DNA of 14,423 bases from Desulfurococcales archaeon (lineage in GTDB: Archaea; Thermoproteota; Thermoprotei_A; Sulfolobales; Desulfurococcaceae), in contig JALSQP010000056.1 of assembly GCA_026985375.1 (NCBI GenBank), forward strand, positions 1-14,423, given 5' to 3'. Each line of letters opens with the position of its first letter. Position 1 is the first letter of the stretch. Both the position numbers and the translations under genes were made by a program. Shown piece by piece: positions 2,475-7,209 of this stretch. Under the pieces are notes generated by a model, which saw only the letters and a list, made by a program, of their open reading frames with translations, did no database searches and had not been told where the DNA came from.

Positions 2475-2927
2475 ATGGCTGCTAAAAAAAGATTTAAATT
2501 CCTTGACCATCCAGCCGATGTTTATATAAAAGCATATGGCGCGAGTCTACCAGAACTCTACGAGAACGCGGGGCTGGCCTTGTTCGAGACAATGACCAAT
2601 ACTGCTTCGGTAGCACCATCGAAAAACTTCAGCGTAGAAGCTGATGGCTTTGATCTTGAGAGCCTACTATATAGATGGCTAGAGGAGTTACTCTATATAT
2701 ATTACAGCTATAATGTAATGTGTAGCCAAATAGTAGTGAAAAGGATGGAGATCACAAGGCAAGAGAATAATGTTTTCAAATATGTTATTAAGGGAATCTG
2801 CTATGGTGAAGAGTTCAATCCAGAGAAGCACGAAGGACGCGTGGAAGTTAAAGCGGTAACATATCATCTAATGAGAATAATCAAAGATGATGAAGGCTGG
2901 AAAGCATATTTTGTCCTTGATATATAA
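2475..2927 (+). CDS. Archease, RtcB tRNA-ligase cofactor protein
   Basis: 150 residues, the usual archease length. The N-terminal FKFLDHPADVYIKAYG (residues 8-23), the central YRWLEELLYI, the GEEFNPEKHEG loop followed by VKAVTYH, and the terminal VLDI are all family signatures. The acidic residues at D11, D15 and the C-terminal D149 are the metal-binding type. Archease speeds guanylylation and turnover of the RtcB RNA ligase, which joins tRNA exons after splicing. This fits a genome whose nearby tRNA-Phe and cbf5 transcripts need splicing. ATG 2475 has GGGTGA 7 nt upstream. The gene ends 2 nt from the convergent archaemetzincin stop. Confidence 0.93.
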   Translation: MAAKKRFKFLDHPADVYIKAYGASLPELYENAGLALFETMTNTASVAPSKNFSVEADGFDLESLLYRWLEELLYIYYSYNVMCSQIVVKRMEITRQENNVFKYVIKGICYGEEFNPEKHEGRVEVKAVTYHLMRIIKDDEGWKAYFVLDI

Positions 2928-3514: not shown

Positions 3515-3593
3515 TCCAGCCACCACTTCATATACCTTTGTATAGTATAGAATAGTGCCGCCGCGGGGATTTGAACCCCGGACAACCCGGTCT

Positions 3594-4153
3594 TCAGCTT
3601 CGCCGGACCGCCCGTGCTAGGAGCCATGATTTTCTTTTATGGCTACTACTAATAAACTTTATCCATTTAGCTATTTCTTCTCTTCGATATATTGCTAGCT
3701 TATAGGCCTTATCCGTTCTCTGTATATGTGAAATTATACTATATCTTTGTTTTAGTACGGTTTTTATCTGCTCTAATAAAATAAGGCTTTTATTAGTAAT
3801 TTCTATTGTAGGCTATTCTGCTATTCCTGGCTTACGGCTAAAGAATATTGTTCCATCCGTATCAAATATTCCCGTATCAGCCAGATTAATGTATTTACTC
3901 TTCTGTAATTTTAATGGAATTGAAATACTTGAGCTCTTTTCCCAATGGAAAACCTAGACCAGTTATTACATCAAATAGATGTTTTGACTTGAATTCAATC
4001 CGATAAGCTTTTGAACGAAATTCTAGCCTAGTTCTTTTCCAATTAAAGTCTTGAATAGGTTGGCTATATGGGATGCATATTCCTTATCTCCTTCAGCTAT
4101 TGTAAAGAAGTACTTGCAATTGGGCCACTATATAATGTCCCATCCCCGATCAT
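3594..4153 (-). pseudogene. Decayed LAGLIDADG homing endonuclease inside the tRNA-Phe intron
   Basis: Four collinear pieces in changing frames match a two-motif LAGLIDADG enzyme of about 185 residues. Piece 1 from 4153 reads MIGDGTLYSGP (first motif core). Piece 2 from 4118 reads KYFFTIAEGDKEYASHIANL and then FKTLIGKE. Piece 3 from about 4040 to 3898 includes AYRIEFKSKHLFDVITGLG and LGKELKYFNSIKI. Piece 4 from about 3893 contains NLADTGIFDTDGTIF (second motif, GIFDTDG at 3872-3852), an in-frame TAG at 3815-3813, then IEITNKSLILLEQIK and a KAYKLAIYRREEIAKWIKF tail. Each change of frame and the amber stop would kill the protein. The last frame stays open through the intron stem and stops at TGA 3596-3594, inside the tRNA anticodon loop. 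Related enzymes spread introns by cutting intronless alleles; this copy is inferred to be inactive. Confidence 0.85.
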
Positions 4154-4268
4154 TATGTCTTAGAACTCGTTAAATTCCTTTATTTATATTAGTTATTTTA
4201 TTTTATGATGTAAGTTATTATAGTAAATAGGGTTATGGAGGAAAAACTGCTCCTAGCACGGGCGTCCA
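3599..4268 (-). other. Archaeal bulge-helix-bulge intron of tRNA-Phe
   Basis: Both splice sites form a bulge-helix-bulge. The first bulge is C4270 G4269 ^ T4268. The 4-bp central helix is CGCC (4274-4271) with GGCG (3604-3601). The second bulge is A3600 A3599 ^ G3598. The inner helix is GGAC (4267-4264) with GTCC (3608-3605), then one unpaired G (3609), then a perfect 15-bp stem. Cutting after the second base of each bulge gives exactly the exon ends needed for tRNA-Phe. The outer helix is weak (about 2 bp), as expected from an unusual position that crenarchaeal splicing endonucleases tolerate. The body is AT-rich compared with the exons and holds the endonuclease remnant. Confidence 0.85.
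3610..4263 (-). repeat. 15-bp perfect inverted repeat closing the intron stem
   Basis: GCCCGTGCTAGGAGC at 4263-4249 on the minus strand is exactly complementary to the stretch at 3624-3610. In RNA it clamps the two ends of the intron together beside the splice motif, so the roughly 620-nt interior can vary without harming splicing. Its perfect state contrasts with the ruined coding interior. Confidence 0.85.
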
Positions 4269-4331
4269 CGGGCGCTCTCCCGGGCTGAGCTACGGCGGCG
4301 CTGTCCGGGATATTATTTTATTTTCTCGGTG

Positions 4332-5084: not shown

Positions 5085-5088
5085 TTTT

Positions 5089-5148
5089 TCAGATTTTCCG
5101 GCTATCATCACCGCCCGCCTCGGGCTCAAGAGACCCTCTTATCATCAT
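5089..5148 (-). ncRNA. C/D-box guide sRNA candidate
   Basis: On the minus strand the order is box C ATGATGA (5148-5142), a 12-nt guide TAAGAGGGTCTC (5141-5130), D'-like TTGA (5129-5126), a spacer that folds as GCCCG-AGG-CGGGC, box C' GTGATGA (5111-5105), a second 12-nt guide TAGCCGGAAAAT (5104-5093) and box D CTGA (5092-5089). Total size is 60 nt and both guides have the 12-nt spacing archaeal 2'-O-methylation guides require. By the N+5 rule the modified bases would be the U of AUUUU in target AUUUUCCGGCUA and the C of GAGAC in GAGACCCUCUUA. Which RNA carries these targets is not known here. The D' box is imperfect and the terminal stem is weak. Confidence 0.75.
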
Positions 5149-5173
5149 CAATGATAATACATGGGTAAGTAAA

Positions 5174-5553: not shown

Positions 5554-6150
5554 CTATTTTCGTCGGAATATTAGTATTGTGTAGCCTTTCCGAGAGATGT
5601 TCTCGATTATTTCTATGTCCTTTCTTGTGTCTAGTTTGCTGATATAATAGTTTGCCCCCCTTGCTAAGACGAATTCGGCATATCCTCCTTTCTTTAGGTG
5701 TTTTATGCTTCCGATAATAATTTCTTCGACAATCCCTTTACCAGCTGATATTGGAGGATTGCTTATTATCATGTCGAATACCATGCCCTTAACAGGCTCG
5801 TACGTATTACCTTGGAGAACCTTGACTCGTTCCTCAACGCCATTTAGCCTTGCATTATATTTCGCTATTTTAACAGCGATAGGATTTATATCTACCATGT
5901 ATATCCGCAGCTTAGGATAGGCCTTAGCAAGACTTATTCCTATGGCTCCGTACCCACATCCAATATCTAGTGCTGTGCCCTCCTCAACGATTATGGCGTA
6001 TTCGAGCAACAGTTTCGTGCCTAGGTCTACCTTGTTGCCTGAGAATAAGCTAGAATAAGTGACAAATTCTAGTGTAACCCCTTTATAGACGAACGAGATA
6101 ACCTGTTTCTTTCCCAGCCTATATTTATTGGGCCTAAAATAATGCGTCAT
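5554..6150 (-). CDS. RsmC-like class I SAM-dependent methyltransferase
   Basis: 198 residues with one Rossmann methyltransferase domain. Residues 36-50 (FSGNKVDLGTKLLLE) match the RsmC/RlmG-type lead-in. The SAM-binding motif I is LDIGCGYGAIG (61-71), an acidic strand end is MVDINP (85-90), and SNPP (130-133) is the catalytic motif of N-methyltransferases acting on guanine, adenine or glutamine amides. Bacterial RsmC makes m2G in 16S rRNA; the archaeal substrate here is inferred to be rRNA or tRNA. Its ATG overlaps the cbf5 stop as ATGA (6147-6150), a sign of translational coupling, so it is co-expressed with the pseudouridine synthase. No extra RNA-binding domain is visible. Confidence 0.85.
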   Translation of the reverse strand: MTHYFRPNKYRLGKKQVISFVYKGVTLEFVTYSSLFSGNKVDLGTKLLLEYAIIVEEGTALDIGCGYGAIGISLAKAYPKLRIYMVDINPIAVKIAKYNARLNGVEERVKVLQGNTYEPVKGMVFDMIISNPPISAGKGIVEEIIIGSIKHLKKGGYAEFVLARGANYYISKLDTRKDIEIIENISRKGYTILIFRRK

Positions 6151-7209
6151 TTATTCTTCCTCCAGATAGGCGGATACACGTCCGTCTTCATGTAAACCCG
6201 TTTAGTTTTCACTACTATCCCTTTCTTCATCCGAGCAATTTCTTCTGCGTTTTTGAGGGCCTGACCTAACGCGACAAGTTCTCCCTTGAGCGTGAGGATC
6301 GCCGCGAGCTTTCCAGGCTGTACATCCCTGGTCAGTCTCACTATGCCGGGGACAGCGAGGTTTGCACCGTGAGCTATTGCGTCTACAGCCGTATCGCGTA
6401 TCATTATCTTTGGTATATGGACTATTGCTGTTTCCACAGGTAACACTACTCTACGTAGATACCTTTCATCTCCCTCATTTTTCCAGAGATACAATGCTTC
6501 GCTTACCTCCTGCATTCTGACAAGTGTCTCGTCTTCCCGGTAGGGCCCTGTTCTCGTTCTGCGGAGCTCCCTCATATGAGCTCCCACACCCAACAATAGG
6601 CCTAGATCATGGGCTAGCTTACGCATATATGTGCCAGCCTCGCAGAGGACTCTCAACAGGACATATCGCCCATTATGTTCGAGTAGTTCAAGTTCGAGGA
6701 TCGTTCTCTTACGTATAGTTCTCTTAACACTCGATCTGAGAGGCGGCTTCTGATATATTGTTCCTTTGAAATTCTCTAGTGCTTCAGCGAGCTCCTTATC
6801 TCCGACATCGCCGTGAAGCTGAACAGCCATTACATATTCTTTAACGGTATGTATTACATTACCTATTACTTTGGTAGCATTGGCTAGAGCCACAGGTAGT
6901 ACGCCGGTCACCTTGGGGTTTCCCCGCCCCAGCCCCTCAAGGCCAGGGCTCTAGGGTACCCCCGTGACCGGCACGTTCTAGCCCGAACATTTTCTTAATC
7001 CAAGCCACTACTTCATGACTTGTAGGTCCCGGTGGTTTATCGAGATTGATAACCCCATTCCTTATATGGTCTTCGATCTTCCTCTCATATGGGAGAACAC
7101 CGTAATCAGGCGATGTATCATCTTCTCTAAGCACTATCCATTCATTCTTGAATCCAGCATGTATTGTTATCTTGTCTATGAAGATAAGACCTTTTTCAGC
7201 GAGACCCAT
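6147..7209 (-). CDS. cbf5: Cbf5, H/ACA RNP pseudouridine synthase, interrupted by a 31-nt intron
   Basis: Exon 1 is 7209-6951 and exon 2 is 6919-6147; joined they encode 343 residues, the normal archaeal Cbf5 length. Unspliced, the frame meets TGA at 6939-6937. The TruB-type catalytic domain begins with NLDKPPGPTSHEV. The catalytic loop GHGGTLDPKVTGVLP contains Asp87, whose codon is built across the splice junction. The motifs ELRRTRTGPYRED and RKLAHDLGLL follow. The C-terminus from about residue 260 (AHGANLAVPGIVRL, GELVALGQAL) is the PUA domain that binds ACA-box RNA. Cbf5 makes pseudouridine in rRNA with H/ACA guides. ATG 7209 has GGTGA 6 nt upstream. It is the last ribosomal-cluster gene before the methyltransferase. 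Confidence 0.94.
6920..6950 (-). other. 31-nt archaeal intron in cbf5
   Basis: Exons join as CTAG^ACCCCAAG, restoring the reading T-L-D-P-K-V-T. In RNA, CCCT (6956-6953) pairs with GGGG (6925-6922, one G-U pair) as the central helix. AG^A (6952-6950) and AA^A (6921-6919) are the two bulges. The inner hairpin is GCCCT with GGGGC plus an extra GCC/GGC. The outer helix GGGG/CCCC is offset by two or three unpaired bases on the 5' side, so this is a relaxed bulge-helix-bulge. Shifting both cuts by one base (intron 6949-6919) gives the same mRNA. Introns at this region of cbf5 are known in crenarchaea such as Aeropyrum and Sulfolobus. Confidence 0.88.

Follow-up and report, generated by a model that had tools for sequence, protein, structure and literature searches.

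A tRNA-Phe intron with a decayed LAGLIDADG endonuclease gene in a Desulfurococcales archaeon, and signs of homing among its relatives

The tRNA-Phe(GAA) gene in the window, the whole 14,423-nt stretch of Desulfurococcales DNA analysed here (genome G000; all other G labels are compared genomes), is interrupted by a long intron that keeps its splicing structure and carries the remains of a LAGLIDADG endonuclease gene. We read this element as a mobile archaeal BHB intron specific to position 30/31 of tRNA-Phe, dead in the window and intact-looking elsewhere. We give this reading a probability of about 0.85, and we infer homing, cutting and splicing from sequence. The initial annotation had proposed that a homing intron invaded the tRNA-Phe gene and later lost its enzyme to decay, with splicing retained, and that proposal is supported as the best reading of the locus. 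The gene and its intron comprise the following features:

4299-4269, minus strand: tRNA-Phe(GAA) 5' exon, 31 nt, ending at position 30
3599-4268, minus strand: intron of exactly 670 nt at position 30/31, a noncanonical site
3598-3557, minus strand: tRNA-Phe 3' exon, with the anticodon GAA at 3595-3593
3556, minus strand: discriminator A of tRNA-Phe

The two tRNA-Phe halves, first described as lying 670 nt apart, are confirmed to the base. Their joined sequence (73 nt) is called by ARAGORN as tRNA-Phe with anticodon GAA; the program missed the gene in the unspliced window, and Rfam returned only sub-threshold, wrong-family matches for the 3' half. The intron has a G+C content of 34%, against 42.6% for the window. 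Gene copies were counted by matching a 17-base pattern from the 3' half without mismatch. The window's genome, which is 69.5% complete, contains one such match, and a second, intron-free tRNA-Phe gene, which would have spoken against the initial annotation, was not seen by this exact pattern. G001, G005 and G019 (99% complete each) likewise have a single match, located at the long-intron gene, and the window's 5' exon sequence is identical in these three genomes. The exact pattern was not found in G004, from the same genus.

A DNA search of 61 genomes provided 30 tRNA-Phe loci for comparison, the window's included. All introns lie at 30/31: five are long and complete (633-670 nt; G000, G001, G003, G005 and G019), one is cut by a contig edge (G027) and 13 are short (21-84 nt), while 11 loci are intron-free. 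Extending the search to the class (229 genomes) added G119, a member of another order with a 527-nt tRNA-Phe intron whose gene lacks motif 2. The long-intron genomes include MAGs, and G119 is 59% complete. The boundaries are common to all six complete long introns compared.

The intron ends contain a 16-nt perfect inverted repeat (4264-4249 / 3624-3609) and form, together with the exon, a candidate splicing substrate:

4249-4268, minus strand: 5' arm of the intron stem, making a BHB with exon CGCC (4274-4271); 5' cut CG^T at 4270-4268
3599-3624, minus strand: 3' stem arm of the intron, whose GGCG (3604-3601) pairs to exon CGCC; cut AA^G at 3600-3598

The resulting CG^U / CGCC-GGCG / AA^G element has the two 3-nt bulges, the 4-bp helix and the cut after the second bulge base that define a BHB. 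The best fold predicted for the joined ends contains it; the centroid fold differs, and the outer exon helix is weak (about 2 bp), corresponding to a relaxed form. With the loop shortened by hand to 13+10 nt, the joined ends fold with z = -5.5, and none of 200 shuffles was as stable. All 22 scored stem pairs, a set that leaves out the pair of C13 on account of a one-base shift in its partner, are standard in 6/6 long introns, even where they vary (one position is T-A or C-G, another G-C, G-T or A-T). In relatives, the 3' arm doubles as code for the last residues of the enzyme. Two PF01974 splicing-endonuclease genes were found per genome in all six genomes searched, and no group I family, hence no sign of a group I catalytic core, appeared among the Rfam matches at E<=1. 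From these features we would expect the host splicing endonuclease to process the window's tRNA-Phe precursor.

Inside the intron, the endonuclease gene is broken across several frames:

4100-4159, minus strand: piece with motif 1 (MIGDGTL)
4127-4026 and 4083-3898, minus strand: middle pieces in two frames
3600-3953, minus strand: piece with motif 2 (GIFDTDGTIF) and the C-terminus, with a TAG inside at 3815-3813

The C-terminal piece matches PF14528 with E=1.8e-8 (one stop masked as X), and the whole read-through does so with E=6e-8; the two short middle pieces gave no relevant match when searched singly. The LAGLIDADG signal of the initial annotation is therefore not a chance match and includes both motifs, although the remnant spans about 4159-3600 rather than 3594-4153 as annotated. 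One relative aligns over 3600-4124, crossing three TAG and two TAA codons. SecY, also encoded in the window, has an uninterrupted frame, and cbf5 is the only split gene among nine neighbouring ORFs scanned; the remnant thus seems to reflect true decay of one gene and not poor sequence. Three other neighbours are listed here:

2475-2927, plus strand: Archease gene, at a distance of about 630 bp from tRNA-Phe
5087-5152, minus strand: sub-threshold Rfam match (E=0.084) to the C/D-box sRNA sR20
6937-7209 and 6147-6911 (whole 6147-7209), minus strand: cbf5 (dyskerin/TruB) in two ORFs

Archease is a partner of the RNA ligase RtcB, and its gene lies near a tRNA-Phe gene whose exons would need ligation. 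The split in cbf5 fits the short BHB intron described for crenarchaeal cbf5 (PMC2738675).

Intact copies of the enzyme were sought at the same tRNA-Phe site in relatives. In G005 and G019 its frame is open, with both motifs present, and it is the sole long forward frame of the intron. The G001 copy has one stop, and that of G003 has a frameshift and an Asn replacing the Asp of motif 2; P0004, a database protein that is evidently the same enzyme as G003's, is open with both motifs, as are P0005 and P0006. A protein database of 5.8 billion entries yielded 36 enzyme matches, with seven clusters above 60% identity. The C-termini of P0002-P0007 read like the tRNA-Phe 3' exon, and the start of P0001 reads like the 5' exon. 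Matches to PF14528 came from five open relatives, at E values of 7e-11 to 3e-12. An AlphaFold2 model of the G019 protein (pLDDT 89.9) predicts two repeats of helix-two strands-helix-two strands-helix, which suggests two LAGLIDADG-like halves. A profile of six close enzymes matched no PDB chain. A profile of 28 relatives matched the 'putative homing endonuclease' 2dch (E=7e-12) and, over profile positions 20-94, I-DmoI (1b24, E=3e-8); its three best matches were V-ATPase chains (7qsu, 1e-16), which we take to be intein-bearing. Outside the tRNA-Phe set, further LAGLIDADG genes may also abut tRNA genes: the C-termini of P0008 and P0011 resemble a tRNA D-arm in translation and a tRNA end in antisense.

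The open enzyme copies are under purifying selection, with Nei-Gojobori dN/dS values of 0.14 (G005-G001), 0.09 (G005-G019) and 0.07 (G001-G019), dS being near saturation in the latter two pairs and G001 carrying its stop. Ratios of about 0.1 would also suit domestication of the endonuclease, which would then be retained for a service to the host, for instance in splicing. We find this very improbable given the patchy presence of the gene and its broken state in the window, G003 and G119. The stem persists in the window and in G003, with one tRNA-Phe seen, and splicing therefore seems independent of the enzyme.

The codon across the splice junction is GTG in the linear precursor and ATG in the circularised intron in all six long introns, and in four of them the frame from this codon into motif 1 is open. 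G003 and G019 have no further ATG, GTG or TTG between the junction codon and motif 1, while an internal ATG occurs there as well in G001 and G119. The enzyme of G005 has its own ATG in a different frame, and the intron start of P0005, judged from the protein, seems different. As a general start rule the junction codon was dropped, the motif-1 frame being open in just 4/6.

Evidence for mobility comes from an empty site and from the relationships among the introns. G002, a member of the same genus, has an exactly intron-free tRNA-Phe gene with aligned flanks 89-97% identical to those of intron-carrying G003; the identity of the two SecY proteins rounds to 100%. The initial annotation had described the intron as fixed, which is too strong for the genus. 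The window's intron is closer to that of G119 (77.6% nucleotide identity) than to that of G005 (72.6%), whereas its SecY protein is 96% identical to that of G005 and 52% to that of G119. In a tree of the six introns, G000 joins G119 with support 97/95, and a single intron clade of the window's own genus is rejected (AU p=0.00096, in a test set up after the intron and SecY identities had been seen). Because this grouping reverses the SecY relation, the intron has probably moved horizontally between orders, a case built on six introns and one host marker. The G119 exons carry the variants of their own family (G120, G121), so the intron, not the gene, seems to have moved. An old, vertically inherited intron that is merely decaying, with no homing between lineages, would account for the several broken enzyme copies and for the locus adjoining the same nucleotidyltransferase gene in close relatives. 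It is nonetheless improbable in view of the reversed SecY relation, the empty site in G002 and the purifying selection on open copies.

Since tRNA genes are common integration sites (PMC4090602, in excerpt), the 670 nt could also be imagined as the remains of a virus or plasmid inserted by an integrase. This origin is extremely unlikely: no direct repeat was found in 3540-4330, the BHB and both tRNA halves are complete, and the insert is colinear with the endonuclease gene of the other long introns. A viral carrier of the enzyme was considered and rejected when IMG/VR gave 14 relatives of just 24-38% identity.

A homing intron that loses its enzyme gene might leave a short intron behind. We compared 17 short 30/31 tRNA-Phe introns with the long-intron ends, scoring 26 positions and omitting the last six bases, which are fixed by the exon. 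The 30-nt intron of G120, from the family of G119, matches at 21 of 26 positions, a value equalled by none of 20,000 random stems, and the 84-nt intron of G006, from the window's own family, matches at 19/26 (p=1e-4). On the basis of these matches, deletion of the enzyme gene probably left a short intron in two lineages. Placed in the window's exons, the G120 mini-intron keeps the stem in its best fold but not the exact BHB (z=-1.57; 14/200 shuffles as stable, not significant). The matches of G030 and G058 (p about 0.009) are borderline once the 17 tests are allowed for, and 13/17 short introns bear no resemblance to the long-intron ends; many short introns may therefore have another origin or have diverged. 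The enzyme is dead in the window, as the initial annotation held, yet the element is more than a local fossil, with open copies, an apparent crossing between orders and candidate remnants elsewhere.

In another class, a related enzyme is encoded beside the tRNA-Phe gene and not within its intron. A phylum search of a sample of 398 genomes found it in G375 and G385, directly upstream of a tRNA-Phe gene with a 30-nt 30/31 intron. Among the 90 genomes of their family, the enzyme occurs in four at E<=1e-20 (three open, one broken), each time adjoining tRNA-Phe:

L131, L141, L130 and L142 (four genomes of the other class): upstream enzyme loci, with a degenerate duplicated 5' half in L131 and L141

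Local alignment placed this degenerate duplicate upstream of the enzyme gene in G385 and G556, where it beats 200 shuffles; the same procedure did not find one in G375 and G558. A survey of the family by exact tRNA-Phe pattern, which saw the gene in 39/90 genomes and covers introns up to 30 nt, placed the mini-intron in 4/4 enzyme carriers versus one of 35 others, the remaining 34 being without intron (Fisher p=6e-5, kinship ignored). That one exception, G478 (L145), has the family's 30-nt tRNA-Phe intron and no endonuclease match at E<=1e-20. A protein tree separates the tRNA-Phe intron enzymes (94/100) from the three open upstream enzymes (100/100), each set forming a group of its own. Neither group takes in any of the five rRNA-intron enzymes in the tree, of which three have long branches.

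These observations can be arranged into a homing cycle. The two-motif LAGLIDADG endonuclease encoded by an intact intron would cut an intron-free tRNA-Phe gene at 30/31, and repair templated by the intron-bearing gene would copy the intron in by gene conversion. At the RNA level, cleavage by the host splicing endonuclease at CG^T and AA^G would let the exons join to a normal tRNA-Phe, so the cost to the host would be low. Once the site is filled, the enzyme would have no purpose and would decay; the states seen are open, one-stop, frameshifted, partly deleted and fully broken. In some lineages the enzyme gene would be deleted, leaving a mini-intron of 30-84 nt that would still block the cut site and confer immunity.

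Archaeal rRNA genes are known to contain BHB introns that carry a homing-endonuclease gene (PMC4496867, PMC6125680). Those of the I-DmoI type share with the tRNA-Phe intron the BHB motif, a large intron ORF and a two-motif enzyme, but their host gene is rRNA rather than tRNA; the rRNA-intron enzymes compared show 25-34% identity, with the five in the tree outside the tRNA-Phe group. PMC2738675 puts the length of archaeal tRNA introns at 11-175 nt. Many of these short introns occupy noncanonical sites and have the same kind of splicing signal; unlike the long intron, the 17 compared contain no gene. The crenarchaeal cbf5 mRNA intron (16-44 bp; same source) is likewise archaeal, outside rRNA and of BHB type, but is too short for an endonuclease gene. 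Group I introns with homing endonucleases, found in bacterial tRNA and other genes (PMC3984707, in extract), are also mobile and have tRNA among their hosts; they differ in being self-splicing ribozymes. Circular tRNA introns have been reported in Haloferax (extract of PMC7714728). Section 16 of PMC4090602 describes tRNA introns transposed in Thermoproteales, presumably at the DNA level and by a mechanism it calls unknown; the word 'homing' was not found in the text of that paper. Passages of a 2023 meeting report (PMC10714607) call some tRNA introns transposable and name homing endonucleases for bacterial rRNA introns only. Among the literature matches listed, in which subscription papers are little covered, no title or abstract opening names a homing endonuclease in an archaeal tRNA intron.

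Homing suggests one route by which archaeal tRNA genes may gain introns. As a tentative wider reading, short 30/31 tRNA-Phe introns in Thermoproteota could largely be products of homing after deletion of the enzyme gene, persisting in part by immunising an essential single-copy tRNA gene. The external enzyme of the other class, with its 30-nt intron and, in 2/4 genomes, a duplicated 5' half-gene, would then be a separate form of this strategy. For the long introns, the open junction frames could mean that their enzyme is translated from intron RNA in unspliced or circular form. A single tRNA site displays empty, open-frame, decaying, partly deleted and mini-intron states along with signs of order-to-order transfer, so that a direct test of the homing model would need just one enzyme and one short target. 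The model may explain the odd positions of some introns in tRNA genes.
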